64,000 nt of DNA from a virus (IMGVR_UViG_3300023174_004352:1-64000), one strand, 5' to 3'. Counted from the stretch's first letter, positions 25,191 to 58,015 are shown. The notes: generated by a model from the sequence alone, not told the origin. Made by a program: numbers and translations.

Positions 25191-26171
25191 ATGATAGCCA
25201 ATTTTCAAACAATACCATTTGAATCAATCGTACGATTTGGACAACGCACAATGTTATCCAACCCATTATTTTCTACAAGCTGGATATTGGGCCGCTTCTG
25301 TAATTACAATTGTTCCTATTGCTGGCCCTACGCTAGAAGTGATAAACTTGATCATCAGGATTTTGAAACGTATATCCGTACTATTGATGAAATCAAACGG
25401 CAAGCAAGGGCCAACGGGTTTAATCAATTCCACTGGAGCTTCAGCGGCGGTGAACCAACTGCTTACAAACAGTTATTGGATTTAATCAAACATCTAGACG
25501 AATTAGAATCTACGTATCAAAGTGTACACATGACTACCAATTTAAGTCCGGGAAGCAAATGGTGGAACACTTGGTGCCGCAATACAGAGATGTTACAACG
25601 TAGAAGTATCACTGCCAGTTTTCACGATGAGTTTGCTCGCGAACAAGAATTTGGCGACAAGTGTTTACAGTTGCAATACGAACTGGTACACGTTACAATC
25701 AACCAAGTAATGGTGCCAGAAAAGTTTTATGAACTGTATGAGCGTATGGAACGCTTTCACAAACGTGGAATCAATGTCACTCTCAAACCACAAAGCAATC
25801 CCACAGCGTCTGGCATAGTAGACGGATACACTGAAGATATGATAGACAAGATGCAGACTGGATTTCCACAACGTGCAAACGGCGAGGACACCTATCAGAT
25901 AGCATTGTATGACGCCGATGGCAAAGAATATCTATTTGATCAAGCAGAAAGATTTAATGCCTTTGGATTTAACAAATTTCAAAACTGGACTTGTAATTCA
26001 GGATACCAAAGTGTTATAATAAGAAGTAATGAAGTAAAAAGATCGTATAGTTGTCATGATCAAATCCTTGGAACATTAGACGGAGGATTTGAATTATTCA
26101 AACAGCCAACTAAATGTATAACACCCAACTGTGTTAGTAGTGCTGACAGTAAGATACCAAAATGCAAATAG
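25191..26171 (+). CDS. Radical SAM enzyme with SPASM-like C-terminus
   Basis: A 326-residue radical-SAM protein with CxxxCxxC at Cys37, Cys41 and Cys44 (CNYNCSYC), the GGEPT SAM motif (FSGGEPT), and a C-terminal Cys-rich region (WTCNSGY, YSCHDQI, CITPNC, PKCK) that looks like an auxiliary-cluster domain. The enzyme would make a 5'-deoxyadenosyl radical for C-H chemistry on an unknown substrate. It resembles the proteins encoded at 33912 and 34795, sharing the W-x-C-N-x-G region. First gene of a three-gene operon; overlaps the next gene by 10 nt. Confidence 0.9.
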   Translation: MIANFQTIPFESIVRFGQRTMLSNPLFSTSWILGRFCNYNCSYCWPYARSDKLDHQDFETYIRTIDEIKRQARANGFNQFHWSFSGGEPTAYKQLLDLIKHLDELESTYQSVHMTTNLSPGSKWWNTWCRNTEMLQRRSITASFHDEFAREQEFGDKCLQLQYELVHVTINQVMVPEKFYELYERMERFHKRGINVTLKPQSNPTASGIVDGYTEDMIDKMQTGFPQRANGEDTYQIALYDADGKEYLFDQAERFNAFGFNKFQNWTCNSGYQSVIIRSNEVKRSYSCHDQILGTLDGGFELFKQPTKCITPNCVSSADSKIPKCK

Positions 26172-26752
26172 ATACAGAACACTTACACTATTGGATGCAA
26201 GCCATCCGCCAAAGTCCAGATCCGATACGTACCATGGATGCCTTTTGGTCAGGACAACTCAAAAGCAAAGAATGGTTGATTACCAACTTACGTAAGAATG
26301 TAAACAAGTTTGTCAGTATAGATATTCACGGTGGCTGGGTAGGAGTGCTGGCCAGTATGTTATTTCAAAGCGATATCTATGTCAACAATATCCGTAGCAT
26401 TGATATTGATCCCAGTTGTGAACCTATTGCTACCATGATGAATAAGCAAGAAGAAATGGCAGGCAAGTTTAAAGCCGTAACTGCTGACATGTGCGAGATT
26501 CGAAGCGATGCCGATGTTGTTATCAATACCAGTTGCGAGCATATCACGCAAGACCAATACGACCTATGGCTGTCAGGTATGCCCCATAACAGTCTATTGG
26601 TATTGCAAAGTAACAACTATGACATTCCAGAACATGTTCGTACAGCAAACAGCCTAGATGAATTCAAAGCACAATGCGGTATCAATGTGCTATGGGCCGG
26701 AGAACTAGAGTTACCGTTATACAAAAGATGGATGATCATCGGAAAACAATGA
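26162..26752 (+). CDS. Class I SAM-dependent methyltransferase-like
   Basis: A 196-residue Rossmann-fold protein. FVSIDIHGGWVGVLASML matches motif I, SIDIDPSC motif II, TADMCEI motif III and VVINTSCEHI motif IV. It would transfer methyl from SAM or bind SAM for another purpose; the acceptor is unknown. It sits between two radical-SAM genes, overlapping both (10 nt and 4 nt, the second as ATGA), so it probably acts on their substrate. Confidence 0.7.
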   Translation: MQIDTEHLHYWMQAIRQSPDPIRTMDAFWSGQLKSKEWLITNLRKNVNKFVSIDIHGGWVGVLASMLFQSDIYVNNIRSIDIDPSCEPIATMMNKQEEMAGKFKAVTADMCEIRSDADVVINTSCEHITQDQYDLWLSGMPHNSLLVLQSNNYDIPEHVRTANSLDEFKAQCGINVLWAGELELPLYKRWMIIGKQ

Positions 26753-27810
26753 ATATAAATTCAATCCACATCGAGCTAACAGACAAGTGTCAAGCTGCTT
26801 GTCCAATGTGTTGGAGAAATACGTATGGCGCAGGCGAGCGTCCACACATTAAAAACATAGAAATAACTCTAGAACAATTTAAGCAATGGTTTCCTGTAGA
26901 ATTTTTAAAAGATCTTAAACACTTTTACGCCTGCGGAAACAATGGCGATCCACTATTAGCACATGACTGCTTGGAAATTTTTGAGTATGTCGCTGCAAAT
27001 TCTAATTGCAGTTTGGCTATTCATACCAACGGCAGTCTACGAAATAAAGAATGGTGGCAACAGGCAGCGAAGGTTCTGGGCGATAGGGGCAAAGTGATTT
27101 TTGCTATTGACGGATTCAAAGGCGAGCACGAAATCTATAGACGAAACACTAGCTGGAATAAAATTATAGACAATGCAAAAACTTTTATCACAGCCGGCGG
27201 CCATGCAAGAGCAGACTGCATTATTTTCAAACATAACGAAGATCGAATAGAAGAACTAGAAGCCTACCTGTACAATATTGGATTTAAAGAAGTCAAACTA
27301 AAACCAACTGAACGATTTTACGGTAAGGGAGAGTTTCCTGTTTACAATAATAAATTTGAACAAGAGTATATTATTGAGCCTCCTACTAATTCTAAATGGA
27401 CTCAAAATGTTATACGTCCTAACTTTGTTAAATTAGTTGATAAAGAAATATTTCAACAGATGCTCGATGCATCAGCAGTTGTTGATTCTGATTGTTCTAA
27501 AGGTGAAAACATCTATGTCAGCTCTAGCGGAGAATTGTTTCCTTGTTGTATTATTGGCGGCCAGCTAGAAGCTAGCGGAGATTCTATATTTGAATCAGAT
27601 AACCCTGAACAGATAATTAGAAACAGATTAGGACAAAGTGCTGTAGACCTAATGGATGATTTAGGAATTCCTAATCTAAACCAAAAAAATATATCTGAAA
27701 TTTTATCCAGTTTAGATTGGATGGAAAAGTTTCCCAAGCATTGGACCACAGACAAAAAGTTTGTTTGCGTTAGAATGTGCGGCAAAGATTTTAAAAAGTT
27801 AGTTTTGTAA
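26749..27810 (+). CDS. Radical SAM/SPASM enzyme
   Basis: A 353-residue protein. The start at 26749 is chosen for the ATGA overlap and because the CxxxCxxC (Cys14, Cys18, Cys21; CQAACPMC) then sits normally near the N-terminus. A C-terminal SPASM-like region follows: DCSKGENIYVSSSGELFPCC and CVRMCGKDF. It is closely similar in layout to the 36340 protein (GNNGDPL, FAIDGF, TFITAGGHARAD). SPASM enzymes often modify peptides or carrier-bound substrates. The 3' end overlaps the convergent oxygenase gene by 20 nt. Confidence 0.9.
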   Translation: MNINSIHIELTDKCQAACPMCWRNTYGAGERPHIKNIEITLEQFKQWFPVEFLKDLKHFYACGNNGDPLLAHDCLEIFEYVAANSNCSLAIHTNGSLRNKEWWQQAAKVLGDRGKVIFAIDGFKGEHEIYRRNTSWNKIIDNAKTFITAGGHARADCIIFKHNEDRIEELEAYLYNIGFKEVKLKPTERFYGKGEFPVYNNKFEQEYIIEPPTNSKWTQNVIRPNFVKLVDKEIFQQMLDASAVVDSDCSKGENIYVSSSGELFPCCIIGGQLEASGDSIFESDNPEQIIRNRLGQSAVDLMDDLGIPNLNQKNISEILSSLDWMEKFPKHWTTDKKFVCVRMCGKDFKKLVL

Positions 27811-28477
27811 ATTCAATACCAATGCCTTTGCTTTTGATTTTGTCAATCATAGGCAAAAACATTTCAGGAAGATCACAGTTTAAAAATAATTCTCTTTCAT
27901 TGGTAGACGAAAATCCGGTGATGTAATTGTTTTTAATCTGTTGATTGATAAAGCCCATCAGTTCAATATAAGTTTCCTGCTTCCAATCATAATCCCCGCC
28001 AGTAACCTCAATGTGTATTCCGGGTCTATCTAATTTAAACTTTGGCAATAGGCATCTAATATTCAAATGGATTCTGTTGCGTGGTCCCCAGTTTGATGCC
28101 ACATGAGTTTTACTAGTATCCATTCTCCACAGTGAGCCATCTGCCGGAACGTGGTGTAGGTGATTGCCTGATATGTCTACCAAGAAACTGTAAGGGTTGG
28201 TCACAATAGCTAGGTGTATTCTATCATCTGGATCAGCGTGAGCAGTATAACTTTCTCCGGACTCTAAGCATAATAGTCTTGCCTGACCGATAGGCCCAAG
28301 CTGAGATAACAAGTTGCCCAACGGAGTATCAGTAAACTCATTTTTAGTTGCCCACGGATCGCTAAAGAAATCTCCAGCCATATCATTCAGCACTAATCGT
28401 TTACCAAAATTGCCCAAGGATTGAACTTGTTCAATAATAGGCTCTATAGAAATTTTGTTAGGTAGTAGTTGTAACAT
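27791..28477 (-). CDS. Aspartyl/asparaginyl beta-hydroxylase-like oxygenase
   Basis: A 228-residue 2OG-Fe(II) dioxygenase-like protein with His80 and Asp82 (YTAHADPDDR), His125 (KTHVASNW) and Arg135 (RNRIHLNIR), as in the Asp/Asn hydroxylase family. It is a single-gene transcription unit starting at one of the block's bidirectional nodes, 11 bp from the divergent PP-loop gene. Substrate unknown. Confidence 0.75.
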   Translation of the reverse strand: MLQLLPNKISIEPIIEQVQSLGNFGKRLVLNDMAGDFFSDPWATKNEFTDTPLGNLLSQLGPIGQARLLCLESGESYTAHADPDDRIHLAIVTNPYSFLVDISGNHLHHVPADGSLWRMDTSKTHVASNWGPRNRIHLNIRCLLPKFKLDRPGIHIEVTGGDYDWKQETYIELMGFINQQIKNNYITGFSSTNERELFLNCDLPEMFLPMIDKIKSKGIGIEFTKLTF

Positions 28478-28490
28478 TAAATATATTTAT
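28477..28490. promoter_or_regulatory. Palindromic bidirectional late-promoter node, 11 bp
   Basis: The two divergent start codons (minus ATG 28475-28477, plus ATG 28489-28491) are only 11 bp apart. The plus octamer TTAAATAT (28477-28484) and the minus octamer ATAAATAT (28483-28490) overlap each other and touch the opposite start codons. Transcripts from either would be leaderless or nearly so. Confidence 0.6.
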
Positions 28491-29223
28491 GGACGTTAAA
28501 ATACCCTTTAATAGTAACTGGAAAAATATTGCAATAAGCGTAAGCGGTGGTGCCGACAGTGCGCTATTGGCATATATGGTATGCGAACTTGCCAAAGAGC
28601 ATAATGTTACTGTACACATAATCAATCATGTGCGTATGTGGAAGACACGGCCATGGCAACAGCACGATGCTGATCAAGTTTACAATTGGCTGTTTCAACG
28701 TTTTTATCATACAACATTTAAACGACACACCAACTTCATTGCTCCGGATATAGAGTATGGTAATATTGGACCTAATCTAACTGACGAATACGGTAAACAA
28801 GTAAGTGGAGATAATATTCAACAGCGTGCCTATGCTGAATTTATTTGTCACAAGCATGATGTAGATGTATACTACAATGCAGTCACCCGTAATCCTAGGC
28901 TAGCATCATTTAACGGTATGCGTGAACGTGATATCGAACCCACTGTCGATAACAAACATTTAGAATATATGATTCATATGGGACGTGTGGCCAGCCATCC
29001 ATTTAGATTTGTAGATAAGTCATGGGTGTTGGCACAATACAAACGACTGGAAATAATGGATCTGTTTGATATTACTCGCAGTTGTGAAGGTGAGTTTGCA
29101 GATATCAATTACACAAACTATAACAAAGGACAGTATGTGCCAGTGTGTAACGAATGTTTTTGGTGTAAGGAAAGAGAGTGGGCTATTAAAGCAAATGAGC
29201 CAACTCAGGAAATGTTGCCTTGA
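28489..29223 (+). CDS. PP-loop ATPase, QueC/ExsB-like
   Basis: A 244-residue protein with the PP-loop SVSGGADS (residues 17-24), HVRMWKTRPW, and a C-terminal CNECFWC (CxxCxxC) zinc-like motif as in QueC. PP-loop enzymes adenylate a carbonyl or base to build amides, nitriles or thio groups. The QueD-like gene at 16281 hints at 7-deazaguanine chemistry, but other PP-loop families (amide-forming, tRNA thiolation) fit as well. A stand-alone transcription unit; its 3' end overlaps the 29186 radical-SAM gene by 38 nt. Confidence 0.8.
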   Translation: MDVKIPFNSNWKNIAISVSGGADSALLAYMVCELAKEHNVTVHIINHVRMWKTRPWQQHDADQVYNWLFQRFYHTTFKRHTNFIAPDIEYGNIGPNLTDEYGKQVSGDNIQQRAYAEFICHKHDVDVYYNAVTRNPRLASFNGMRERDIEPTVDNKHLEYMIHMGRVASHPFRFVDKSWVLAQYKRLEIMDLFDITRSCEGEFADINYTNYNKGQYVPVCNECFWCKEREWAIKANEPTQEMLP

Positions 29224-30607
29224 AGTCTGTCTTACGCTGTGCATCCATGGTTGTAATGTAATCGCGGAAGTCAGGCAATAGGTTAGTATGATCTTCTGCA
29301 TCCATCCAATCTAATATACCTTCCCAACGCTTCCAACCATAGGGATTGGTTTCCCAAAACTCTGTGTCTTGCGTATAGTTGTCCCATAGCCATTGCTTTA
29401 GTTCTGCAAATAACGCACGGACTTCTAGTTTATCTTCTTTGGGAAGTACACGTAGACTCAACCATGTTGGAATCCATAATAGGTGAACACCGACAAGCCC
29501 ACCGCCAACGGTTTGACCAGCAGCATTTTTATCAAAGTTTAACTTTTTAAATCCGCTGGTAACTTTCCATTTAATAAACTCAGGCACATGTTTGATGTTT
29601 AATATTTGTACAGCAAATGCAATGTTAGTCTGTATGTTGCTAGGAGTATTTTCCAAGCGCCAAAGATTTTCTTCAACAGTTTTCCAATCTGTAGGGTATC
29701 GGATATAGTGTACTCGATCACCAATACCATCTAGACTAATGCCTACTTTAACTTTGCGAAACTTTTCCCATATAGAAATAATTTCTTCGTTGACAAGAAT
29801 GCCGTTGGTATTATATCTCAAGCTGATCTTGTCAGCATATCCTCGTTTGATAATCTCTTCCAAGAACATCTTATGCTCTTTGATCAACAACGGTTCACCG
29901 CCAGCAAAGTATAATTGTTTGATGTTTGGAATCTGATCAAAGATCTGTTCCCAGAACTCTGGATTCTCGTGCCAGTAGTTATTGAACTCTGACGGAGTCC
30001 AGTCCATTTGTTTTTTGACCAACGGACTTTGAAAGATAGGAAATACTTTTTTATGTTCAGGCACCCACATCGAACTATCGTGTGGACTGCACATAATACA
30101 TTTCAAGTTACAGGTATGTCCTAGACGCAGATCTAAATATTGTAACTTATAAGGAACTGTGCCATCTTCTTCGGTTTCACGTATAAGTTCTTGGATGTCA
30201 ATCTTTTCTTCTAGGTGCCATGTGCCGGTTTCCCAGATGCGTTTACTGCTAATACCTTCTTGTTCTTCTTTAAAGCATTTGGTACAGCTGGCCGGCACCT
30301 TTCCTTCTAGCATGGTCTTACGTACACTTTTCATGTAGTCGTTGTTAAATGCTTCAGTAGGTAGATTGTGAGAAAAGTTAGCAGGCTCGCCGTCTTCCAT
30401 TTTAACAAGTCCTACAGTATAGTCACCGCTGTCTGCACCAGATGCATTGGCCACGCAACAGATACGCATGTCTCCATTTGGACGAGTAGCCAAATGGATC
30501 CAGGGCAACACACAAAAAGAATCAGTGCCCGCTATCTCTGAAATCTGTCTTTGCCATTTGCCCAATTGGGTTGATTCTTCTTGTAACCAAAATACTTTAT
30601 CATTCAT
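29186..30607 (-). CDS. Radical SAM enzyme with N-terminal cysteine domain
   Basis: A 473-residue protein. The usual order is inverted: an N-terminal Cys-rich, SPASM-like region comes first (Cys32, Cys50, Cys51, then CTKC at 108-111) and the CxxxCxxC radical-SAM motif follows at Cys166, Cys170 and Cys173 (CNLKCIMC), with FAGGEPL as the SAM motif. Same layout as the proteins at 31482 and 39646. This type is known from T4-like marine phages as a twitch-domain radical SAM. Starts from a perfect TATAAATA octamer. Confidence 0.9.
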   Translation of the reverse strand: MNDKVFWLQEESTQLGKWQRQISEIAGTDSFCVLPWIHLATRPNGDMRICCVANASGADSGDYTVGLVKMEDGEPANFSHNLPTEAFNNDYMKSVRKTMLEGKVPASCTKCFKEEQEGISSKRIWETGTWHLEEKIDIQELIRETEEDGTVPYKLQYLDLRLGHTCNLKCIMCSPHDSSMWVPEHKKVFPIFQSPLVKKQMDWTPSEFNNYWHENPEFWEQIFDQIPNIKQLYFAGGEPLLIKEHKMFLEEIIKRGYADKISLRYNTNGILVNEEIISIWEKFRKVKVGISLDGIGDRVHYIRYPTDWKTVEENLWRLENTPSNIQTNIAFAVQILNIKHVPEFIKWKVTSGFKKLNFDKNAAGQTVGGGLVGVHLLWIPTWLSLRVLPKEDKLEVRALFAELKQWLWDNYTQDTEFWETNPYGWKRWEGILDWMDAEDHTNLLPDFRDYITTMDAQRKTDFKATFPELAHLL

Positions 30608-30612
30608 AGAAA

Positions 30613-30643
30613 TATTTATATGCTACTTTAATAGGGTAAATAT
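30613..30643. promoter_or_regulatory. Bidirectional late-promoter node
   Basis: Minus: exact T4 late octamer TATAAATA (30613-30620), 5 nt before the ATG at 30607. Plus: GTAAATAT (30636-30643), 3 nt before the ATG at 30647. No ribosome site in either direction. Confidence 0.65.
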
Positions 30644-30646
30644 TTC

Positions 30647-31498
30647 ATGAACAGAGCTAGAATTGCCGCAGCGTATTCTACAGAATTTTTAGAAGTAGAA
30701 AGACCTCAACCCTTATCTGATAAAGTTATTGAACAACTGATTCAAGATGTACTGTCTGGCGCTTTAGACAAAGACATTACTGACAAAGTGTACTCTAATT
30801 TTAAAAGCGAAATGACCGCTTGGTTGTTTAAAAGTAAACTGAACACTCTAACAGGATTTGATAGTTTTAGTCGAGTAGATATTATAAATGGTTGTACTCA
30901 ATTTATTGACAACATTTATATGCAAGGCCCTGTACAAGTACTACGTGGCGATTACAGATATCACGAAAGATTGGGATTGGCGTATGTTAAAGATGTGGGC
31001 TCGCTGATTCCAGATATTCCTTTAATCGTAGCAATGCCGTTTCCTAGCATTGGTGCTCCACATCAAGACATGGAGGAGATATTAAATGAATGTTTGGTTA
31101 AAAAGATTAAAGTCCACATTGACGGTGCTTGGACCACCTGTTGTCGTGATATCGTATTTGATTACGGGCATCCTGCTATATCTAGTGTTGGCATCAGTCT
31201 TTCCAAGGGTCTAGGATTAGGATGGAATAGGATTGGCCTGCGCTGGATTAAAGAAAGTAAAGTTGACGCTATTACAATTATGAATGACTTCAATATGAAT
31301 CTTCGTGCGCCGGCAATGATAGGTTTACATTTTTTACGTAATCTTCCATCAGACTATCTATGGGATACCTATGGAGATACCTACTACAAAGTGTGTAAGG
31401 ACTTTAACCTTGCTCCTACTAATGCAATTTACCTTGCATTACAGAACAATCAACCAGTGGGTGTGAGCCTTTTAATAAGACATGTTGCCGAACAGTAA
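30647..31498 (+). CDS. Short PLP-dependent aminotransferase-like protein (fold I)
   Basis: A 283-residue protein with class I/II aminotransferase landmarks: Asp159 (VHIDGAW) for the pyridine nitrogen, SLSKGLGLGWNRIG with the Schiff-base Lys187, and Arg195 for phosphate. It is about 100 residues shorter than typical family members, missing part of the N-terminal PLP-binding region (no clear GxG-type turn), so activity is not certain. First gene of a five-gene operon; it overlaps the next gene by 17 nt. Confidence 0.7.
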   Translation: MNRARIAAAYSTEFLEVERPQPLSDKVIEQLIQDVLSGALDKDITDKVYSNFKSEMTAWLFKSKLNTLTGFDSFSRVDIINGCTQFIDNIYMQGPVQVLRGDYRYHERLGLAYVKDVGSLIPDIPLIVAMPFPSIGAPHQDMEEILNECLVKKIKVHIDGAWTTCCRDIVFDYGHPAISSVGISLSKGLGLGWNRIGLRWIKESKVDAITIMNDFNMNLRAPAMIGLHFLRNLPSDYLWDTYGDTYYKVCKDFNLAPTNAIYLALQNNQPVGVSLLIRHVAEQ

Positions 31499-32753
31499 AA
31501 CATTTTGTATGCACCCATTCACTGGGTTAGCAACTAGAGAAGACGGAGCCATTTGTGCTTGTTGTCGTAGTCATCCCGTTGGATTTATTGATAAAGAATC
31601 CCTAGAAGAAATTTGGAATAATGACACAATGACTCGTATACGTAAGTCAGTACTTACTAACATACGTCCGCCAGAGTGCGAGCCTTGCTTTAACCTAGAA
31701 GATCAGGGCGTTGAATCCTTGCGACAACGTCATATACGCGGCGCAATTCCTGAAGCTAGGGTCAACTTGTATCCTAATGCCTTAGACAGCTTAAACGACG
31801 ATTACACAATGCCGTTTGAAATTCCTACAATGGAACTAAAATTAAACAATTTGTGTAACCTTAAATGTCGCATGTGCCATCCGATGGACAGTACCAGTTG
31901 GAATGATTGGGGTGTAGTAAAAGAGTATTACAAAAAAGAAAACAATATCATGTATGCTATTGTTGAAGAACACGATTTAGAACGCAAACCATTTTTAGAC
32001 AAGTTTCAAGACAGTCCGGAATGGTGGGCTAGCTTAGAGAAGTTGCTGCCATACTTCCGTAGAGTAGAGTTTGCTGGCGGCGAACCTCTAATGGATCCGC
32101 AACACTATCGAATACTTGATATGCTTGCACCCTACGGGCATCAAATAGAAATCAAGTATGCAACTAACCTAAGTATGCTAGGCAAGAGCAATCGTACTAT
32201 TTGGGAATACTGGCCTAAATTTAAATCCGTAGCAGTAAATGTTAGTATTGATGGATTGTGGAACAGCTACGAATACGTTCGAGGTAATGCCAGCTTTGCT
32301 GAATTGATCAACAACATAAAACAAATTCAAACAATACCAAACATCAGTAGAATTGTAGGAGCAGTTACAGTGCAGGTTAGTAATATTCTTATACTAGACA
32401 AGATGATTGAATATTTCTTAAACGATTTAGGTATTATATTTCACACTCATCGAGTAGAGTATCCTAAATTATTATCAGCTCAAGTACTTCCACAGGATTT
32501 AAGAGATCTAGCTGTTAAAAGATTAGAGGCAATAAGTTTGCGTGTAAAAGATTTCAAGTTGGTGCAACAGCACCCTGAATTACTACAATACACTCTAGGG
32601 CAAATACAAGATAACATCAATTATCTAACAGCAAGAGATCAAAGTGATAAATGGAAAGACTGTGTTGAGTTTAATAAAAAATTAGATGCTACCCGCAATC
32701 AATCATTTACGGAAGTAACACCGGAGTTTAAATCGTATGTGGATGGATTATAA
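31482..32753 (+). CDS. Radical SAM enzyme with N-terminal cysteine domain
   Basis: A 423-residue protein of the same inverted layout as the 29186 product: N-terminal Cys9, Cys25, Cys27, Cys28, CEPC at 66-69, then CNLKCRMC (Cys125, Cys129, Cys132) and FAGGEPL. The N-terminal HPFTGLATREDG matches the aligned LPWIHLATRPNG of the paralogue. It lies between the short aminotransferase and two oxygenase genes and overlaps both neighbours by 17 nt. Confidence 0.9.
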   Translation: MLPNSKTFCMHPFTGLATREDGAICACCRSHPVGFIDKESLEEIWNNDTMTRIRKSVLTNIRPPECEPCFNLEDQGVESLRQRHIRGAIPEARVNLYPNALDSLNDDYTMPFEIPTMELKLNNLCNLKCRMCHPMDSTSWNDWGVVKEYYKKENNIMYAIVEEHDLERKPFLDKFQDSPEWWASLEKLLPYFRRVEFAGGEPLMDPQHYRILDMLAPYGHQIEIKYATNLSMLGKSNRTIWEYWPKFKSVAVNVSIDGLWNSYEYVRGNASFAELINNIKQIQTIPNISRIVGAVTVQVSNILILDKMIEYFLNDLGIIFHTHRVEYPKLLSAQVLPQDLRDLAVKRLEAISLRVKDFKLVQQHPELLQYTLGQIQDNINYLTARDQSDKWKDCVEFNKKLDATRNQSFTEVTPEFKSYVDGL

Positions 32754-42152: not shown

Positions 42153-42159
42153 ACGCATA

Positions 42160-42180: not shown

Positions 42181-42184
42181 CCTG

Positions 42185-47496: not shown

Positions 47497-47499
47497 GGT

Positions 47500-47518
47500 A
47501 TATTTAACCACTAAATAT
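47500..47518. promoter_or_regulatory. Bidirectional late-promoter node
   Basis: Plus CTAAATAT (47511-47518), 4 nt before the ATG at 47523. Minus TTAAATAT (47500-47507), 3 nt before the ATG at 47496. Confidence 0.6.
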
Positions 47519-47522
47519 TTGC

Positions 47523-50112: not shown

Positions 50113-50116
50113 GAAA

Positions 50117-50147
50117 ATATTTAGTGATTGTAATCTAGCGTAAATAG
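50117..50147. promoter_or_regulatory. Bidirectional late-promoter node
   Basis: Minus CTAAATAT (50117-50124), 4 nt before the ATG at 50112. Plus GTAAATAG (50140-50147), 4 nt before the ATG at 50152. Confidence 0.58.
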
Positions 50148-50151
50148 ATTC

Positions 50152-50784
50152 ATGAAAGCACTATTAGAACAGCTCAACTTTACTATTGATAAAAAACAGC
50201 TAAAACAATACTATGATCGAGTGGTCGGTGAATTCCAAGATCATAAATGGACCTATCAACAAAATCAAGATCAAGTTAAAGATGTGTTTTTAAAAGAATA
50301 CGTTGGTAAATCTAAAAATAAGACAGCCGGGTACGGATGGGCAATTACTACAAATAATCTAGATCTCAATTCAAAGACAAATATCCCATGGCAAAATATT
50401 CATAAAGATTTTCAGCACGATATCAAAGAACTTTCTCCAGAAAGAGATACACCGTTGGTGTTTGGAATAATTGAAACTATCAAACAAAAAATTCCCTATG
50501 CTAAATTGATAAGTTTATCAGTGTTTCCTCCTAGCACCGAATTAGTCCCGCACAAAGACGAACCATTTTTACTAAGAGTACACATTCCTATATGTTGTGA
50601 CAAAAAGTCTTTCTGGTTAAACGAGGACGGATATCAGTCTTTGGATGTAGGCCAAGCCTATCTATGTGATACTCGTCAGCCACATTCTGTATACAATGAC
50701 GGCAACACAGATCGAGTCCATCTATTATTTGCTATACATCAAGATCACGAAGAAGATATTAAATCTATCACAGGTACATTATGA
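50152..50784 (+). CDS. 2OG-Fe(II) oxygenase-like, KLNF paralogue 2
   Basis: A 210-residue protein (LEQLNFTID start) with His134 and Asp136 (LVPHKDEPF), His178 (RQPHSVYND) and Arg188 (DRVHLLFAI). It is aligned end to end with the 48822 product, including AYLCDTR. ATGA overlap with the next paralogue. Confidence 0.8.
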   Translation: MKALLEQLNFTIDKKQLKQYYDRVVGEFQDHKWTYQQNQDQVKDVFLKEYVGKSKNKTAGYGWAITTNNLDLNSKTNIPWQNIHKDFQHDIKELSPERDTPLVFGIIETIKQKIPYAKLISLSVFPPSTELVPHKDEPFLLRVHIPICCDKKSFWLNEDGYQSLDVGQAYLCDTRQPHSVYNDGNTDRVHLLFAIHQDHEEDIKSITGTL

Positions 50785-51392
50785 ACAACAAAGTAGAAAA
50801 ATTAAATTTTAAAGTTGACCTATCTAAACTTAGAGAATTCTACGACAGCATTTCTAACAGTCAACTGAAATGGTCTTTTTCTCAACAACGTGAACAATTG
50901 CATCCTATAACTGTAGAGAAGTATAACGGTTACGATTATTCAGGATTGCCCTACGGGTGGGCATTGACTAGTCCGTACGACGATGATCAGCCTGCGGCAC
51001 CATGGGCCATTACTAATTTTGCTCCGGGATCAAGTAAACGCCCAACGGCACTCATCCAAGGAATAGCAAAAAGTATTTTTGATTTGCTACCTACAGATGC
51101 ATTTGAATTTAGTGTAACAGTACATCCGCCTGGAGCAGAAATTGTTAAACACAGTGACGGGGATAACACTCTGCGAGTTCATATTCCTATCCAAGGCACT
51201 ACACATTTTATAATTGATGATAACGGCGAAGAAACGTACAAGTTAGAATGTGATGGTAGTGCGTATTTGATAGACACACGTTTTCAACATAGGACCGTAA
51301 ATCCCTTAGACACTGATCGTGTTAGTTTATTGTTTGGGATCCCACCTAGCAGTGAAGAAGCAATTAAACAGATTACTGGATACTTAGTGTAA
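50781..51392 (+). CDS. 2OG-Fe(II) oxygenase-like, KLNF paralogue 3
   Basis: A 203-residue protein (VEKLNFKVDL start) with His124 and Asp126 (IVKHSDGDN), His170 (RFQHRTVN) and Arg180 (TDRVSLLFG). Tandem with paralogue 2. Its 3' end overlaps the convergent 51373 oxygenase gene by 20 nt. Confidence 0.8.
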   Translation: MNNKVEKLNFKVDLSKLREFYDSISNSQLKWSFSQQREQLHPITVEKYNGYDYSGLPYGWALTSPYDDDQPAAPWAITNFAPGSSKRPTALIQGIAKSIFDLLPTDAFEFSVTVHPPGAEIVKHSDGDNTLRVHIPIQGTTHFIIDDNGEETYKLECDGSAYLIDTRFQHRTVNPLDTDRVSLLFGIPPSSEEAIKQITGYLV

Positions 51393-51945
51393 TCGCTATT
51401 CTAGGAACATCATGATCAATATGTTCTACACTGTGTATTTTTTGAACATCTAACTTATGCCATTTGTTTTTTAGTATACGGTGTTCTTCTATCAGTGTTA
51501 GCCGTTCGTAAGGAATATATGTTTCGGAATAAGATTTGTGAGATTTAAATTCTTCAGTAGGTTCATAAAAACAGGTTATTGTTTCTGGGGAAGCAGAAAT
51601 AATATAATTATATGCAATTTTGCGGTAACCATCCACGTGCGGTAATATCTGCGTACCGCCGGTCATTATCTGAATACTGACTATATCATATTTTTCTGAT
51701 ATATTTTTAGATACCCAATTTTTTAACTCCAATGGTACATCTAATAAAAATATAAATTCTGCTGGATTGTATTTCTCTCGGTCTATCCCAAACAATGAGC
51801 ATCCTATAGAATCATCCCAATTTATATTCGATTCGTCTATAGGATAGTCGTCGTAGGTATGAGATGTATCTATGTTGTTTATATAATCTAAAACTAATAG
51901 TTCTAAATCTTTTGGAATTTGCGGCCAGTCTAAATAATCAACCAT
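51373..51945 (-). CDS. 2OG-Fe(II) oxygenase-like protein
   Basis: A 190-residue protein with His103 and Asp105 (ILPHVDGYRK), His171 (QKIHSVEHID) and Arg182 (VPRIAITLS). A divergent member not clearly in the KLNF set. Last gene of the five-gene minus operon that begins at 54855; it overlaps the preceding stop by 1 nt. Confidence 0.7.
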   Translation of the reverse strand: MVDYLDWPQIPKDLELLVLDYINNIDTSHTYDDYPIDESNINWDDSIGCSLFGIDREKYNPAEFIFLLDVPLELKNWVSKNISEKYDIVSIQIMTGGTQILPHVDGYRKIAYNYIISASPETITCFYEPTEEFKSHKSYSETYIPYERLTLIEEHRILKNKWHKLDVQKIHSVEHIDHDVPRIAITLSIQ

Positions 51946-52745
51946 TAGTATGTGTCCAGATGATCGATGCCTAGTTGTTTGCGGAACGCTTCTGTAAACT
52001 TGCCGTCGATACGTAGGCTGTAACTCTGTTCCATAATCTTTTCACCGCCGTGCCAATCAACATCATTCCACCATGCAGCTCTAGTATTTAAGTATATCTT
52101 ATTCTTAGATTCAGGATCCCATAAGTAAAAGGCTTTTTTAGTATTAGGACGAACATGTATAAACTCGTTGCGATGAGGGTTGACAACGTCAACACCATTC
52201 TTGGCATCCAAGTCTCTGTGTTCAAATGGAATACCATCTGCTTCGCAATGAAAAAATATAACACGACCGATGTGTTCAAATACTGTGCCTTGTAGTTGCT
52301 CTACCCATTTAACTACATTAGGAAAGTATGCGGCTTCTTCGGTAAGTTTACGAGGAGCAGTACGATCGTCCCACGAACCTTCTTCCCATAAGAAATAGTA
52401 TATGTAGGGATCATAAGCACCCATTGCCATTTTAAGATAGCGTGTAAATTTGTTACGTTGTTTATAGTTATTAAAATCTTTAAATAAATCTATGCCACCC
52501 TGGTAGATAGGATCATCCTCAGGCAACGCCATAAATTCGTCCATGGCTTGATAGATAGGTTTCCAACTAAGTTTATAACTCATATTATCAAATGAGAAAC
52601 CAGGCTTCATCCATGTACCCTCTTTGGCAAATTCTCGTGCGTCAGCAAAGCCTCGAATTATCTCTGGTTGTAGTCTATCAAATTCTGCCATATCAAGATA
52701 TTCTGACATGTCATAATAGGGCTGATTGTTTATACCTTGTATCAT
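51945..52745 (-). CDS. Oxygenase-like protein, larger type
   Basis: A 266-residue protein with IPFEHRDLDA (His176, Asp178), DWHGGEKIME (His232) and YSLRIDGKF (Arg245), consistent with a 2OG-Fe(II) dioxygenase of a different subfamily. The N-terminal 130 residues (PYYDMSEYLDMAEFD onward) are unrecognised. Overlaps the kinase-like gene by 4 nt. Confidence 0.6.
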   Translation of the reverse strand: MIQGINNQPYYDMSEYLDMAEFDRLQPEIIRGFADAREFAKEGTWMKPGFSFDNMSYKLSWKPIYQAMDEFMALPEDDPIYQGGIDLFKDFNNYKQRNKFTRYLKMAMGAYDPYIYYFLWEEGSWDDRTAPRKLTEEAAYFPNVVKWVEQLQGTVFEHIGRVIFFHCEADGIPFEHRDLDAKNGVDVVNPHRNEFIHVRPNTKKAFYLWDPESKNKIYLNTRAAWWNDVDWHGGEKIMEQSYSLRIDGKFTEAFRKQLGIDHLDTY

Positions 52746-53428
52746 ATAGTCTTTGCTCGTTCAATAAAATCTTGTGGATAATTGTTGCTAAAACTAGCCC
52801 AACACAATTGATTTAAAGTTTCAAATGATTGAGGTTCGTCCCATTTAATTCCTAGCCCTTCAATGTGTCTACGCATTTCTTCCTGGCGAGCACTGTATAT
52901 ATGACTTTCAACATCTTGTATGCTAATTAGTTTTTCTCTATCGTTATACGTGAAAAAATAATTGATACTTTTAAGTTTACCGTTTACTACAAAATAGCTG
53001 CTAGGATGCATACTGTATTTCCAAAGCCCTAGACTTTTATGAGCTTTAAAAATCTCTAACATTTGTTCTTGCCAGTCCGGTAATACTCGATCATAGTTAG
53101 CCATGTCGCAACCGGCCTGTTCCCAAAAGTCCGGCCCGTCTATTTCTAGATATAATTTTTGTGCCTTTAAGTCTATGTTTATTATTTTTGGAACTAATTC
53201 AGGAAATGCGTTTCTCATTTGGGTAAGATAGTTTACTTCACGTAACCATTTTTCTTCCATCTTGTTAGGATCGACTACTTGATTCTGACCTTTGTGATAT
53301 TCACTATCATTATGGTACCATTGTACAAATATTGTCTTATCTGAATTTATAAGACTTGTGTAGATTAAATTGTTTCTACAAGGACCGTGGCCCGGAACAT
53401 TGTTATAGTAGTAGTCAAACTTTTCCAC
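52742..53428 (-). CDS. Kinase-fold-like protein, probably catalytically altered
   Basis: A 228-residue protein. The order REVNYLTQMRNAFPELVPKI, then LYLEIDGPDFWEQ, then MHPSSYFVVNGKLKSINYFF recalls the alphaC, hinge and catalytic-loop/DFG regions of aminoglycoside-kinase-like folds, but the catalytic HxD and DFG aspartates are not present (HPSS and NYF). A pseudokinase or unrelated fold is possible. Probable paralogue of the 40937 product. Confidence 0.4.
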   Translation of the reverse strand: MEKFDYYYNNVPGHGPCRNNLIYTSLINSDKTIFVQWYHNDSEYHKGQNQVVDPNKMEEKWLREVNYLTQMRNAFPELVPKIINIDLKAQKLYLEIDGPDFWEQAGCDMANYDRVLPDWQEQMLEIFKAHKSLGLWKYSMHPSSYFVVNGKLKSINYFFTYNDREKLISIQDVESHIYSARQEEMRRHIEGLGIKWDEPQSFETLNQLCWASFSNNYPQDFIERAKTI

Positions 53429-54038
53429 TTAAAACCTCCAACTTAGGCCAGTCTTCGTGTTTAATAACAAAAATTAAACTAAAACGTTCAGGGCCGTTGT
53501 TCCATGTTTCATGCTGACGCTGGGTGTTCAATGTGTATAGATGTCCGTCAACTGGAACATTAAATTCTAAAAACTCTTCGTCAGTTTTATAAAACTTAAA
53601 AACGCACTCTGGATTGTTTCTAATCATGATATGTGTTACATATTCACCTTGGTCATCATGTTTAAAAGTTCGCCCACCGGTAGGTTGTGCTAATATTGCC
53701 CACTTGTAGGCAAATGGTATTTTAGCCTTTAATCGTTCTATTATTCCAAATGACAATGCTGTTGGTCTGTTGTAATCTAATTTTGGAAGATTACTTATGC
53801 TTTCATTTAATGGTGGACATACTGCATCTAGATCTACTAGGTTACTATCAATTGCCCATCCACCATAACTATCTTGATTAGGTTTTTCTGTAAATGTTTT
53901 CCACTTCTTTTCAGTAATTTGATCTTTGAATTTGTGAACAGACCATTTTTTATCTGCGTAGGCTGTTTCTACAATATTAAAATATTCTGCTAATTCTTGT
54001 AGATCAACATGTAGATCTAACTTTTTATAATAATCCAT
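53415..54038 (-). CDS. 2OG-Fe(II) oxygenase-like, KLNF paralogue 4 (divergent)
   Basis: A 207-residue protein (YKKLDLHVDL start) with His127 (TFKHDDQGE; Asp128/Asp129), His176 (RQHETWNN) and Arg185 (ERFSLIFVI). It shares the LSFGIIERLKAKIPFA block with FGIIETIKQKIPYA of the 50152 product. On the opposite strand from the other three. Overlaps both operon neighbours by 14 nt. Confidence 0.75.
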   Translation of the reverse strand: MDYYKKLDLHVDLQELAEYFNIVETAYADKKWSVHKFKDQITEKKWKTFTEKPNQDSYGGWAIDSNLVDLDAVCPPLNESISNLPKLDYNRPTALSFGIIERLKAKIPFAYKWAILAQPTGGRTFKHDDQGEYVTHIMIRNNPECVFKFYKTDEEFLEFNVPVDGHLYTLNTQRQHETWNNGPERFSLIFVIKHEDWPKLEVLSGKV

Positions 54039-54855
54039 TTTTTATCTTTTCAGCAATCGCATTGGCAAATTTTTCATGTACTGGTTCTGATAAATGTAAG
54101 CCTGGATGTAAGTAATCAGCATCAACATCGTGATAGTGACTCATGGACATGGTCTTATCGAAATTGCGCCAGCCGAGTTCGTCAACCAGTTGGTGTTGTA
54201 TTGGATATTGAATTTTTTCTAATAGGTCTTTGATATGCAATTCGTAAGTCGATTCTACAAATACAGGCGGCTTTCCCGTAATAGATTCCACGGTATGTTT
54301 TATCATAACCCAATGTGTTAAATATCTTAGGATCATATCTTGTTCAGTTTCTATATTACACCAAGCATTGAAGAAATCTTTACGTTTAGTTTCGTTATTT
54401 GGACTGCTGTTTATGTTTAGGCATAAATCAGGATCAGTAAGATCAAATGTCCCAGTCCGTACCCAATCAGTTAGTTGTAACATAACAACATCTGGAATAC
54501 GGCCTTCACTTCGCAATCTCAACAAGTCTGTTTGTACTGTAAGGGCCACTCGAACTGTACTAGATCCAGCAAGGGCGTTTACTTCCATATCACACCCAAT
54601 TAAATTCTTTAATTTGGTAGGCCATGCAAGTTCTTGATCTTTGGCTTTTAGTGCATCCGATCCAAATGAATTTTTTTCAGTTTTGAATATCTCGCTTTCT
54701 AACCATCCAGCGGCCTTTTGAAAAATAGTTTCTAAATTTAAAAAATTAGATCGGTTGATTAGCCCAGGAGGAATGTGTCCTGGATACGATGGAAGGATTG
54801 GGTGGCTGAGTTCAAAACCAGCTGCGTTACTATCGCCATTTACATATATAAACAT
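54025..54855 (-). CDS. SGNH-type hydrolase
   Basis: A 276-residue protein. The start at 54855 (MFIYVNGDSNAAGFEL) is chosen because the CATAAATA octamer ends 5 nt upstream and the GDS block then falls at residues 7-9. NALAGSS gives the Gly block, MLQLTDWVR the Asn-block region and YLHPGLHLSEPVH the terminal His block. The best-preserved SGNH hydrolase of the four here. First gene of a five-gene operon. Confidence 0.8.
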   Translation of the reverse strand: MFIYVNGDSNAAGFELSHPILPSYPGHIPPGLINRSNFLNLETIFQKAAGWLESEIFKTEKNSFGSDALKAKDQELAWPTKLKNLIGCDMEVNALAGSSTVRVALTVQTDLLRLRSEGRIPDVVMLQLTDWVRTGTFDLTDPDLCLNINSSPNNETKRKDFFNAWCNIETEQDMILRYLTHWVMIKHTVESITGKPPVFVESTYELHIKDLLEKIQYPIQHQLVDELGWRNFDKTMSMSHYHDVDADYLHPGLHLSEPVHEKFANAIAEKIKNGLL

Positions 54856-54860
54856 ACAGA

Positions 54861-54868
54861 TATTTATG
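54861..54868 (-). promoter_or_regulatory. Late promoter octamer at divergent node
   Basis: CATAAATA on the minus strand, 5 nt before the ATG at 54855. On the plus strand a weaker TATAAACA (54847-54854) could serve the 54880 gene. Confidence 0.5.
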
Positions 54869-54879
54869 AACAACTCCCT

Positions 54880-55437
54880 TTGAAAAAATATAAACTGGTC
54901 AAATGGTCTCAGGATCTAGATTTAGAGGCTTTCTACAACAATGCTAAATTACGTGGATTTGAAAACAACTCAAATCAGCAGTCTCTTGTAGATTGTTTTT
55001 TAAAAGAAGCACATGCTCAAGTTTGGATATTGTATGATAACGATAGGGCAATTGGAAGTGTTGCGGCCCACAGTCTAGATATTCTTCCAAATGCATATAG
55101 AATATGTGCAAGGACCTGCGTACTTACAGATCAAACGCACTTGTCCCATCTTCGAAGTTTAAATAAAACTATCAAGCAACATCAAAATATTACAGCACAA
55201 TATTTTATTCCTGCTTGCATAGAATGGGCAGGTAGAGATAAACAACTATATATTTCTACAAATGAATCATCAGTGGGATCTCAACGTGCTGTGCATACGG
55301 TCTATTGTCCTGCTCTAGAATCAACTGGTGTACTATCAAAGGATTATGTGTTACAATATAGAGGACACGAACAAACCTTCTGGCGATTAAATGTAGAAGA
55401 GTTTTATAAACAATTAGAGCAATTTGGCAAATGGTAA
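54880..55437 (+). CDS. GNAT-like acetyltransferase-type protein (start uncertain)
   Basis: About 185 residues if the TTG at 54880 is used (LKKYKLVKWSQDLDLEAFY). The frame is open further upstream to 54775 but would then overlap the divergent gene and its promoter. AQVWILYDNDRAIGSVAAHS has the look of a GNAT core strand region, followed by QYFIPACIEWAGRDKQLYIS and a C-terminal RGHEQTFWRLNVEEFY. It resembles a conserved marine-phage protein next to B12 radical-SAM genes. Overlaps the next gene by 7 nt. Confidence 0.5.
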   Translation: MKKYKLVKWSQDLDLEAFYNNAKLRGFENNSNQQSLVDCFLKEAHAQVWILYDNDRAIGSVAAHSLDILPNAYRICARTCVLTDQTHLSHLRSLNKTIKQHQNITAQYFIPACIEWAGRDKQLYISTNESSVGSQRAVHTVYCPALESTGVLSKDYVLQYRGHEQTFWRLNVEEFYKQLEQFGKW

Positions 55438-57344
55438 AACATAATGTATATGTATTGAGTTTTAGCGGGTGGAATGACTTCATTCCGGTCCTCTGGCCAA
55501 GTGCAAAAACACACTACGAGTTATATGGCAACTATCCAGAAAAATATAACTGGGTATTGCCCACGGTTGAATTTTATAGAGACATCCAAGAAATCAAAGA
55601 TGAGATCAGCAAGAACCCACCGTCATTGTTTGGTGTGAGTTTGTATGTTTGGAATTATGAAAAGAGTCTTGCCATCTGTCGTTGGGTTAAAGAAACTTGG
55701 CCTGACTGTATTGTAATGACCGGCGGTCCGCATCAATACTTCAAGCATCACGGAGATTGGTTTAAGACTCATTGGTTTATTGATGCTAGTCTACCTAGCG
55801 AAGTCTACGGAGAGATAGCCATCACTGACATTCTCAATAATTACGAGAAAGGCAAAGTTAAATGGAATGCTGTTGAACAGATGGTATATCCTAGCAAGGA
55901 TAAGAACATGGTTCTTCGAAGCCCCAAGGCAACGTACAAAAGAGACTTCGTATGGAATTTCTCATCTTTTGACACGCAGTATTCAGCAATAAAGCAGTAC
56001 AGTGATTGTTACTACAGTAAATTCCCTAATGGTGCATTACACTCAAAGATAGAAACCACTCGCGGTTGTCCATATGAGTGTACCTTCTGCGACTGGGGCG
56101 GTGGTGTTGGCACCAAAGTAATTTTAAAAGATCTCGATTGTGTTAAACGTGACATCGACATACTGTTGGCTTGTGCCCCTACTAGCATTTATATCTGCGA
56201 TGCCAACTTTGGTATAAATCGAGACAGAGATGTTGCCATCGTACAATACATAGCCGATAAAAAACAAGAATCAAAAGATCCAAATTTTCCTAATGTGCAG
56301 TACGGTGGCTTTGCCAAAACTAACAAACACTTTGACACACTAAAGACTATATTCACTATAGAAGCTGAAAACGGCCTATCACAGGTTTATAAAATTTCAC
56401 AGCAGAGTTTCAATGAAGATATTTTAAAAAATGTCAAACGCACTGACCTACGTGCTAACGAACATTTTGAGCTTGCAGAGTTTATGCGTACTACTTACGG
56501 GTACGAAGCCACGGTTGAATTGATTATGGGATTACCAGGAATCACTACAGACATATGGTACACAGAGTTTGATAAGCCTTATGAATGGAATACTCTTGTT
56601 AGAGCCTATGAATGGTACTTGCTCCCAGAGGCTGAAAGTTTTGATATCAAATATAGAAATGAGTTTGGAGTAGAAACTGCCAAGAAATGGTTTAATAGAG
56701 AAGAATACACTATACCCTCGGAGGTAGTAGTTGGCGGCAAATCGTTTACTAGAGATGACTATAAAGAAATGATGATGACCTATACTTGGTACATCTTCTT
56801 TATGCAAAGCGGTGTATACAAATACACCATTAAAGATATACTAGAAAAAAATCAAATTAAATTTGGCGAGTTCCTTAAAAGATTTTATAACCAATGCTAC
56901 CCACGTTTACGATCAGCTAGTCTAGAATCATTCTCAAATTTTGAAAATCATTTAGAAGCGTTTGTCAAAGATGAAGTCAACGAAACATTGCATAACATAA
57001 CCTGGAAAAACGATCAAGGTCCCGACATACTGCATTTCGTTTATTTCATTATGGAGTATTTTAAACACTTTGAAACTCTATCACCTATCTTTGAAGATTG
57101 GCTGGTAAATGATATGCAAGGCAATGCAAAAAAATGTGCAAGTGAGTCTGCTTTAATTATCAGCGAAAAACGTATGGGTACTACTCATTACGGATTTTTA
57201 TCTAAAGTAACATATGATCTATATCGTAATGAACAAGAGTTCATTGCCGACATTTTACGATCAAGTCAATATACCTACGGCAATCTTCTTCTTGGGTCGT
57301 GGAGTATTAGCATACATCCAAAGAGTTTATGGAAGACCAAGTAA
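55431..57344 (+). CDS. Cobalamin-type (class B) radical SAM enzyme, large
   Basis: A 637-residue protein. An N-terminal Rossmann-like domain (residues 1-140; LFGVSLYVWNYEKSL, VMTGGPHQYF) resembles B12-binding regions, followed by TRGCPYECTFCDWGGG (Cys213, Cys217, Cys220) and a long C-terminal part of about 250 residues with no clear domain. It is a family seen in T4-like marine phages. It forms an operon with the GNAT-like gene and a methyltransferase. Possible C-methylation. Confidence 0.88.
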   Translation: MVKHNVYVLSFSGWNDFIPVLWPSAKTHYELYGNYPEKYNWVLPTVEFYRDIQEIKDEISKNPPSLFGVSLYVWNYEKSLAICRWVKETWPDCIVMTGGPHQYFKHHGDWFKTHWFIDASLPSEVYGEIAITDILNNYEKGKVKWNAVEQMVYPSKDKNMVLRSPKATYKRDFVWNFSSFDTQYSAIKQYSDCYYSKFPNGALHSKIETTRGCPYECTFCDWGGGVGTKVILKDLDCVKRDIDILLACAPTSIYICDANFGINRDRDVAIVQYIADKKQESKDPNFPNVQYGGFAKTNKHFDTLKTIFTIEAENGLSQVYKISQQSFNEDILKNVKRTDLRANEHFELAEFMRTTYGYEATVELIMGLPGITTDIWYTEFDKPYEWNTLVRAYEWYLLPEAESFDIKYRNEFGVETAKKWFNREEYTIPSEVVVGGKSFTRDDYKEMMMTYTWYIFFMQSGVYKYTIKDILEKNQIKFGEFLKRFYNQCYPRLRSASLESFSNFENHLEAFVKDEVNETLHNITWKNDQGPDILHFVYFIMEYFKHFETLSPIFEDWLVNDMQGNAKKCASESALIISEKRMGTTHYGFLSKVTYDLYRNEQEFIADILRSSQYTYGNLLLGSWSISIHPKSLWKTK

Positions 57345-58015
57345 AAGAATTTTACGGAGAAATTTGTTTTCCGGGACTATACTCTATCGAGGATTTAAAA
57401 TTCTACGATGCCGAATTAGTGAATCGGTATTTGCAAATCTATGACTATGTGGTAGGCGGGTCAACCTGCGTCCTTGACATTGGGTGTGGCAGCGGCTTTA
57501 TTACAAATTTTTTAGCAAGGCGGCACCCGCATGTTAAATTTTATGCTATTGATTTTAGCACAAGTATACGATATGCTAAATCGTTTGCAGAGAAACACAA
57601 TATCAATAATGTAACATGGATTGAAGCAGATTTTTTAACCTACAAGTTTAGTCAAGAATTTGATTGTGTGATTTCAAATGGAGTTGTGCATCACATGCCC
57701 GACTATACTGTTGCTGTGAAGAAGATAAAAAAACTATTATTGCCCCAGGGAAAATTAGCAATAGGGTTATATAACAAATATGGTAAATTGGCCAAGAAAG
57801 TATTTCCGATTACCTATGTCAACAAAACATTATTTTTAGATCAAGAAAGAGCACCGTTTGAAATGAGTTTTTCAAATCAAGAAGTACTAGATCTATTTCC
57901 AGAATTTGAGGTGCTTAAAATACATCCAGGTTATAAAAATTCTAAAGTGAATCTTTATAACCTGTTGAATTTCAAAAACGGCGGACTCACCGTTTACGTG
58001 TTTAGTTCAAGTTGA
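57329..58015 (+). CDS. Class I SAM-dependent methyltransferase
   Basis: A 228-residue Rossmann methyltransferase: VLDIGCGSGFITNFLARR (motif I), FYAIDFSTS (motif II), IEADFLTY (motif III), FDCVISNGVVHH (motif IV). It resembles small-molecule or lipid methyltransferases of the UbiE type. It overlaps the B12 radical-SAM gene by 16 nt and the convergent fibre gene by 14 nt. Last gene of the accessory block. Confidence 0.92.
   Translation: MEDQVKEFYGEICFPGLYSIEDLKFYDAELVNRYLQIYDYVVGGSTCVLDIGCGSGFITNFLARRHPHVKFYAIDFSTSIRYAKSFAEKHNINNVTWIEADFLTYKFSQEFDCVISNGVVHHMPDYTVAVKKIKKLLLPQGKLAIGLYNKYGKLAKKVFPITYVNKTLFLDQERAPFEMSFSNQEVLDLFPEFEVLKIHPGYKNSKVNLYNLLNFKNGGLTVYVFSSS

Follow-up and report, generated by a model that had tools for sequence, protein, structure and literature searches.

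A replaceable island of radical-SAM enzyme genes at a fixed site in large T4-related phages, with a possible role in glycan synthesis

We analysed a window of 64,000 nucleotides from one IMG/VR virus record of 68,887 bases (IMGVR_UViG_3300023174_004352:1-64000), which holds a block of enzyme genes at positions 25191-58015. The block forms a replaceable cargo island, which occupies a fixed site in large T4-related phages and combines a conserved core with accessory enzymes that vary. The core comprises the radical S-adenosylmethionine (rSAM) enzymes g01, g03, g06, g08, g11 and g12, the methyltransferase g02 and the PP-loop protein g05, and is under strong purifying selection. We infer that the island encodes a late-expressed pathway for an unusual glycan, with the host envelope as its probable target; we place the probability of this reading at about 45%. 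A first-pass annotation, made from the sequence alone, had described the block as densely packed with enzymes that suggest a multi-step tailoring pathway. The packing is borne out by 42 open reading frames (ORFs) with 99.5% coding, gaps of -14 nt at the median and 39 nt at most, and 16 strand switches, and a multi-step pathway is the natural reading of the block.

A conserved core in a replaceable island

An alignment-based scan of IMG/VR recovered at least 576 relatives of g01 in viral contigs, of which 80 were kept. In 38 dereplicated loci, chosen for g01 and for at least 8.5 kb of downstream sequence, g02 is present in 36, g03 in 34, g06 and g11 in 30 each, g08 and g12 in 23 each, and g05 in 21; these counts are lower bounds, because many loci stop within 10 kb. 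The order of the core genes is shuffled between loci. The ratio of nonsynonymous to synonymous divergence (dN/dS) is about 0.05 for g01 and g05, and the corresponding ratio for polymorphism (pN/pS) is 0.09-0.21 for other core genes, which are saturated at synonymous positions. The search for the same gene order in other viral contigs, a check proposed with the first-pass annotation, thus recovered a core that travels together, at a fixed site and in shuffled order. A search of 50,697 deposited phage records gave no match for g08 or g05, only a distant Campylobacter-phage rSAM for g01, one weak match, in the Pelagibacter phage Mosig, for g02, and three distant matches for g06. At the DNA level, the region 25191-50000 has no relative in deposited phages. 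The core genes and the remaining rSAM genes are as follows.

25191-26171 (+): g01, rSAM, the most conserved core gene (Pfam 5.4e-13)
26162-26752 (+): g02, class-I SAM methyltransferase fold, core (AlphaFold2 model, predicted local distance difference test (pLDDT) 96.5, and Foldseek; in 87/90 g01 loci)
26674-27810 (+): g03, rSAM with SPASM-like C-terminus, core (profiles)
28489-29223 (+): g05, PP-loop ATPase with QueC-like C-terminus, core (SGGADS; C-x20-C-x2-C-x2-C)
29186-30607 (-): g06, twitch rSAM, core (NF033640)
31482-32753 (+): g08, twitch rSAM, core (NF033640)
33825-34811 (+): g11, rSAM, g01 paralogue, core (Pfam); the real start is probably downstream
34795-35784 (-): g12, rSAM, g01 paralogue, core (Pfam, paralogy)
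36340-37410 (+): g14, rSAM, g03 paralogue (profiles, paralogy)
37403-38956 (+): g15, B12-binding rSAM (profiles)
39646-40944 (-): g17, twitch rSAM (NF033640)
55431-57344 (+): g41, B12-rSAM, KedN5-like (NF033712, below its cut-off); a 63% identical protein occurs in other large phages

All ten proteins that had been called rSAM carry the CxxxCxxC motif, and nine of them exceed the Pfam Radical_SAM cut-off. They fall into the paralogue groups g01/g11/g12, g03/g14 and the twitch group g06/g08/g17, and two further enzymes bind B12. The curated cut-off of the twitch profile NF033640 (170 bits) is passed by g06 (397 bits), g08 (320 bits) and g17 (276 bits), while the tenth rSAM, g41, reaches 136 bits with the KedN5 B12-rSAM profile NF033712. 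The PP-loop ATPase predicted in the first-pass annotation is g05; despite its SGGxDS and C...CxxCxxC motifs it scores 12.8 bits against the QueC profile PF06508, whose cut-off is 22 bits. Neither g05 nor g02 has a useful match among PDB sequences.

The site of the island is delimited by the following genes, the tail-fibre protein being the neighbour that had been predicted at this end.

23025-23693 (-): left anchor, ThyX-type thymidylate synthase (PHROG 85, 5.7e-72); left of the island in 35/90 g01 loci
24242-24760 (-): left anchor, variable low-complexity protein (family C0/f_24242), recurrent beside the island and probably a virion protein
25019-25128 (-): tRNA-like RNA element with encoded ACCA tail, left island edge; likewise placed in about 50 loci and also present at near-empty sites
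58002-59675 (-): right anchor, tail-fibre protein with Mtd_N domain (profile); same position in the related record G010
59782-60387 (-): right anchor, metallophosphoesterase (profile); 85-94% identical in close relatives

The GC content of the island is 37.3%, as against 41.4% and 40.9% in the flanks. In G010 about 33 kb of differing content lies between these anchors, and within the island much of the region at 36-58 kb varies between relatives. In several loci without core genes the right-anchor genes lie within about 0.1-5 kb of the tRNA-like RNA, forming near-empty sites. On the island side of the RNA, g01 comes first among the window genes in 60 of the 80 loci found by the tRNA-like motif. 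A 345-kb record, G300, carries about 14 kb of other cargo in the slot, namely fatty-acid desaturases, a Rieske oxygenase and a DctP solute-binding protein, with oxygenases and GNAT proteins recognised by reading; the slot at locus L286 has cargo of this type. The slot of L170 holds, on the other side of the RNA, a cupin, a cytidylyltransferase, a PfkB kinase and an epimerase, which resemble an HldE/HldD-like nucleotide-sugar set. The low GC content, the shared flanks with different content, the alternative cargo and the near-empty sites therefore identify the block as a replaceable cargo island. Relatedness to T4 is indicated by a T4 gp9/10-like protein (sub-threshold), by fibre matches to cyanophages and Mosig, and by a flank protein that PA5oct-type phages also have.

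The RNA at the left border has a 7-bp acceptor stem, a GAG/CUC D-stem, a T-arm and the encoded ACCA, and a variable insert takes the place of a recognisable 7-nt anticodon loop. In 30 sequences, 99.8% of stem cells are paired, compared with 93.6% in shuffles, and five stem pairs show changes on both sides, compared with 2.3 in shuffles. ARAGORN missed the element, and it scores 23.7 bits against the Rfam tRNA model, whose cut-off is 29. The "tRNA-like gene" of the first-pass annotation is thus a real RNA element and not a normal tRNA. No full-length match to it was found in deposited phages. Its assignment to the island was considered and rejected: the RNA is also present at near-empty sites and therefore belongs to the phage backbone.

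Chromosomal counterparts and glycosyltransferases

One scan of 84,980 species genomes found homologues of g01, about 50% identical, mainly in metagenome assemblies of Bdellovibrionota, where 17 of 291 sampled genomes have one. The Bdellovibrionota cassettes (L103-L121) also encode homologues of g06 (42-48% identical), g03/g14 (~30%) and g02 (~35%). Neighbouring genes read from sequence, such as a UvrD-like helicase and one resembling seryl-tRNA synthetase, on contigs of up to 937 kb, indicate chromosomes; all cases come from assemblies, and binning errors are possible for single ones. The minimal operon (L114) has the order C13-g06-g01-g03, and in larger versions these genes are joined by g02, g07, a PP-loop protein and family-2 glycosyltransferases. 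A tree of g01 places the clade of the window phage apart from Bdellovibrionota, while L015 clusters with marine contigs that were matched as Rickettsiales, Gammaproteobacteria, Chloroflexi and Acidimicrobiaceae. One of these non-Bdellovibrionota matches, L125, carries the ThyX anchor, and they may therefore be viral contigs.

The gene family C13 models as a GT-A-type glycosyltransferase family (pLDDT 88), with best Foldseek matches that are almost all glycosyltransferases. It occurs in all four related records of 282-364 kb that contain g01, and in the three large records examined it lies directly after the tail fibres. The link between C13 and the rSAM core is suggestive; a strict pairing was considered and rejected on the evidence of G300 (see below). 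A KdsA-like gene (DAHP_synth_1 family) is found in a neighbouring operon in 11 loci. In addition, we observed a second rSAM/glycosyltransferase cluster immediately downstream of tail fibres in related phages (L271, L273).

Late transcription and the possible product

The hexamer TAAATA lies 4-6 nt upstream of the ATG of g04, g05, g06, g07, g14, g24, g29, g32 and g33, with a spacing of 5 nt in seven of them, and occurs at divergent island junctions, e.g. 28478-28488, 30608-30646 and 50113-50151. It precedes the start codons of some flanking phage genes at the same distance. In relatives, the spacing between TAAATA and the start codon has a peak at 4-6 nt, which covers 69 of 639 island genes, and a further one at 10 nt. 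With such spacing, the geometry of T4 late promoters would put the transcription start at or next to the ATG. This suggests that the island mRNAs are leaderless and late.

In the pathway that we propose, a sugar or a sugar-linked unit would be built or rearranged by the core rSAM enzymes, the methyltransferase and the QueC-like ATPase. The oxygenases, aminotransferases, short-chain dehydrogenases/reductases (SDRs), SGNH hydrolases and GNAT protein would decorate it variably with hydroxyl, amino, keto and acyl groups, and its attachment would fall to GT-A-type glycosyltransferases whose genes lie elsewhere in related genomes. Late transcription of the island genes would start from T4-type TAAATA promoters, and the pathway would act on the host envelope, most likely so as to alter receptors or block rival phages; the nearest alternative target would be the phage's own tail fibres. 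The records with C13, the chromosomal operons, the sugar set of L170 and the KdsA-like gene make a glycan the most likely substrate, and the envelope is favoured over the virion because in the chromosomal setting there is no phage tail to act on.

Several observations weigh against a glycan pathway directed at the envelope. Most accessory enzymes have weak family matches and substrates that are unreadable from sequence. Profile searches of the island proteins found no glycosyltransferase within 25191-58015; the first-pass annotation had stated the same for the block, although the wider system does include the C13 family. G300 encodes C13 glycosyltransferases and lacks the rSAM core, and its slot cargo contains no sugar genes.

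It is unlikely, in our estimate, that the target is the virion itself, above all its tail fibres, which late glycosylation, beta-hydroxylation and rSAM cross-linking would diversify or harden. Such a role would fit the position of the island between structural genes and the Mtd_N tail fibre, the late-promoter-like motifs common to the island and the flanking phage genes, and the location of C13 and additional twitch rSAMs, which in related genomes come immediately after tail fibres. Twitch/SPASM rSAMs and Asp/Asn hydroxylases, moreover, commonly act on peptides. However, homologous cassettes are found in bacterial chromosomes, away from phage genes, and phages with the same backbone exist without the island. 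We likewise doubt that the island makes a diffusible secondary metabolite (a modified amino acid, nucleoside or lipid) that aids the infected cell or harms competitors. The aminotransferases, the B12-rSAM, the KedN5-like enzyme, the acyl carrier protein (ACP) with its AcpS, and the oxygenases do resemble natural-product tailoring genes, the alternative slot cargo includes desaturases, and a secondary metabolite was one option proposed for a cyanophage cluster (Iyer et al. 2021, PMC7824862). On the other hand, ACP and AcpS are not conserved, and profile searches of the block with a small-ORF check revealed no ketosynthase, adenylation domain, exporter or peptide precursor. A cluster for ribosomally synthesised and post-translationally modified peptides is disfavoured, as no conserved family of short precursor ORFs accompanies g01 at a distance of up to 4 kb, either in phage loci or in chromosomal ones.

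A nucleotide product, one of the options left by the first-pass annotation, ranks low. We consider it improbable that g05, together with FolE, QueD and QueE encoded elsewhere in these phages, makes a hypermodified DNA or tRNA base. The QueC-like motif of g05, a QueD-like gene in the left flank, FolE in four related records and QueE-like ORFs near FolE would suit such a product, but no inserting enzyme was found: PF01702, which recovered 14 of 14 controls, detected no tRNA-guanine transglycosylase (TGT)/DpdA-type enzyme in five records, which are possibly incomplete and in which a divergent DpdA could escape. Deazaguanine modification of DNA was rejected on this ground. The score of g05 under the QueC cut-off, the lack of a g05 homologue in the island region examined in G009, and the core in chromosomal operons with glycosyltransferases also argue against a modified base. 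Least probable is that unrelated metabolic genes have accumulated in the block without sharing a pathway. Although the variability at 36-58 kb would be expected of such an accumulation, the co-occurrence of the core genes, their chromosomal counterparts and purifying selection speak against it; with a co-travelling core at a fixed site, the genes form one island and are not the unrelated single insertions that would have refuted the first-pass annotation. A bolder extension of the glycan pathway, which we regard as rather unlikely, is that large environmental phages have in common with Bdellovibrionota a widespread rSAM pathway whose product, a radical-modified glycan of a new class, lets phages rebuild the surface of the infected cell, with the tRNA-like RNA at the border serving the pathway or its exchange.

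Known systems, accessory enzymes and neighbouring genes

Environmental phages with clustered rSAM and oxygenase genes have been described before, and the clusters were left unexplained. The host recognition cluster of pelagimyophages and cyanomyophages, for which a change of the host surface was proposed and which in some cases includes rSAM cassettes (Zaragoza-Solas et al. 2020, PMC7029224), is, like the island here, large, hypervariable, non-syntenic and placed by the tail-fibre genes of T4-like phages. It differs in consisting of glycosyltransferases and tail fibres between VrlC and gp14, whereas the window island lacks glycosyltransferases, contains a conserved rSAM core and is bordered by a tRNA-like RNA. 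The T4-like environmental genome TARA_ERS488813_N000010 resembles the window in its many rSAM genes (12 in a single genome), which were, however, reported in connection with iron-sulphur metabolism (Nishimura et al. 2017, PMC5332604). The 10-gene cluster of cyanophage S-SSM6a type, read as capsule decoration or secondary metabolism (PMC7824862), shares phage 2-oxoglutarate (2OG) oxygenases, methyltransferases and sugar or amino-acid enzymes, but its core of carbamoyltransferases and a halogenase was not seen in the window island. Pelagibacter phage Mosig EXVC030M (MT647606) has MoaA-like rSAMs, an Asp/Arg hydroxylase, aminotransferases and an acetyltransferase adjoining VrlC, and a g02 relative at 28% identity, g02 being the only window protein among those searched to match it, and weakly; it carries a carbamoyltransferase, nitroreductases and a desaturase instead. 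The Bdellovibrionota cassettes share g01, g06, g03/g14 and g02 with a GT-A-type glycosyltransferase, and differ in being chromosomal, smaller and linked to their glycosyltransferases. We found no description of this rSAM core in the open-access literature searched. The present analysis provides a defined core, a fixed site with near-empty and alternative versions, and four-gene minimal operons in chromosomes, which together make the function testable outside an uncultured phage.

Profile searches of each protein, also proposed with the first-pass annotation, confirm most of the rSAM calls and give some oxygenase profile match for about half of the oxygenase calls. All 14 oxygenase candidates (g04, g09, g10, g19-g22, g28, g31, g33-g36 and g38), called by eye and motif scan, have the HxD...H...R/K motif. 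The Asp_Arg_Hydrox cut-off is passed by g09, g10, g31, g33 and g34, and g04 is slightly below it; apart from these and g22, the candidates are called by motif and paralogy. The three predicted pyridoxal phosphate (PLP) enzymes hold up, g23 and g32 by Pfam and g07 by invariant residues with a weak aminotransferase match, as do the two methyltransferases, g42 by Pfam and g02 by predicted fold. For the two SDR, four SGNH hydrolase and one alpha/beta hydrolase calls, profile evidence is weak and the support comes from motifs or reading only. ACP and AcpS both exceed their Pfam cut-offs, but the carrier-bound substrate of the first-pass annotation finds little backing: ACP occurs in only 2 and AcpS in only 1 of the 90 g01-bearing loci, and they are therefore accessory, not core. 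An ACP-carrier pathway as the core idea was rejected accordingly. A scan for relatives of g23 gave no match. The accessory genes are as follows.

27791-28477 (-): g04, Asp/Asn beta-hydroxylase-like oxygenase (Pfam 2.4e-4, sub-cut-off; in 15/38 loci)
30647-31498 (+): g07, PLP enzyme of fold-type I (invariant D159...S-x-S-K187; weak PDB aminotransferase match)
32737-33312 (+): g09, Asp/Asn hydroxylase-like (Pfam)
33302-33919 (+): g10, Asp/Asn hydroxylase-like (Pfam)
35747-36316 (-): g13, SDR-like (weak Pfam)
38922-39653 (-): g16, SGNH hydrolase-like (motif and homologues only)
40937-41506 (-): g18, kinase-like by eye (no Pfam/PHROG match; in 9/38 loci)
41481-42215 (-): g19, oxygenase-like (HKD...H...R motif; g28 paralogue)
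42167-43766 (+): g20-g22, oxygenase-like tandem paralogues (mutual identity 37-43%; g22 weak, sub-threshold 2OG-FeII_Oxy_3)
43751-44929 (+): g23, class-III aminotransferase (Pfam 5e-38)
44910-45728 (-): g24, SGNH hydrolase-like (by reading)
45756-46337 (+): g25, SDR-like (weak Pfam)
46334-46633 (+): g26, AcpS-type phosphopantetheinyl transferase (Pfam 5e-15)
46605-46841 (-): g27, ACP (Pfam 1.3e-5; DSL motif)
46828-47511 (-): g28, oxygenase-like, g19 paralogue (paralogy)
47523-48302 (+): g29, SGNH hydrolase-like (weak GDSL)
48283-48828 (+): g30, alpha/beta hydrolase-like (by reading; no profile match)
48822-49454 (+): g31, Asp/Asn hydroxylase-like (Pfam 8e-11)
49438-50112 (-): g32, short DegT-type PLP enzyme (Pfam; Lys present)
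50152-51392 (+): g33, g34, Asp/Asn hydroxylase-like (Pfam)
51373-52745 (-): g35, g36, oxygenase-like (HxD...H...R motifs; g36 paired with g37 in other phages)
52742-53428 (-): g37, kinase-like by eye (no profile match; kept beside g36 in other phages)
53415-54038 (-): g38, Asp/Asn hydroxylase-like (paralogue of g31/g33/g34)
54025-54873 (-): g39, SGNH hydrolase-like (motif only)
54775-55437 (+): g40, GNAT-like (by reading; kept in other islands); the start is probably further in
57329-58015 (+): g42, methyltransferase, right end of the island (Pfam 2.8e-21)

Outside the island, the phage encodes an Fe/Mn superoxide dismutase (13209-13769, minus strand) and a subtilase-family protease (1365-2885, minus strand) that adjoins tail-fibre genes. 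A short histone-like protein, encoded between 24760 and 25019 on the minus strand, is kept in about 10 loci. Near g01, a short protein that, by reading, resembles translation initiation factor IF-1 is found in L009, L033 and about 17 other loci.

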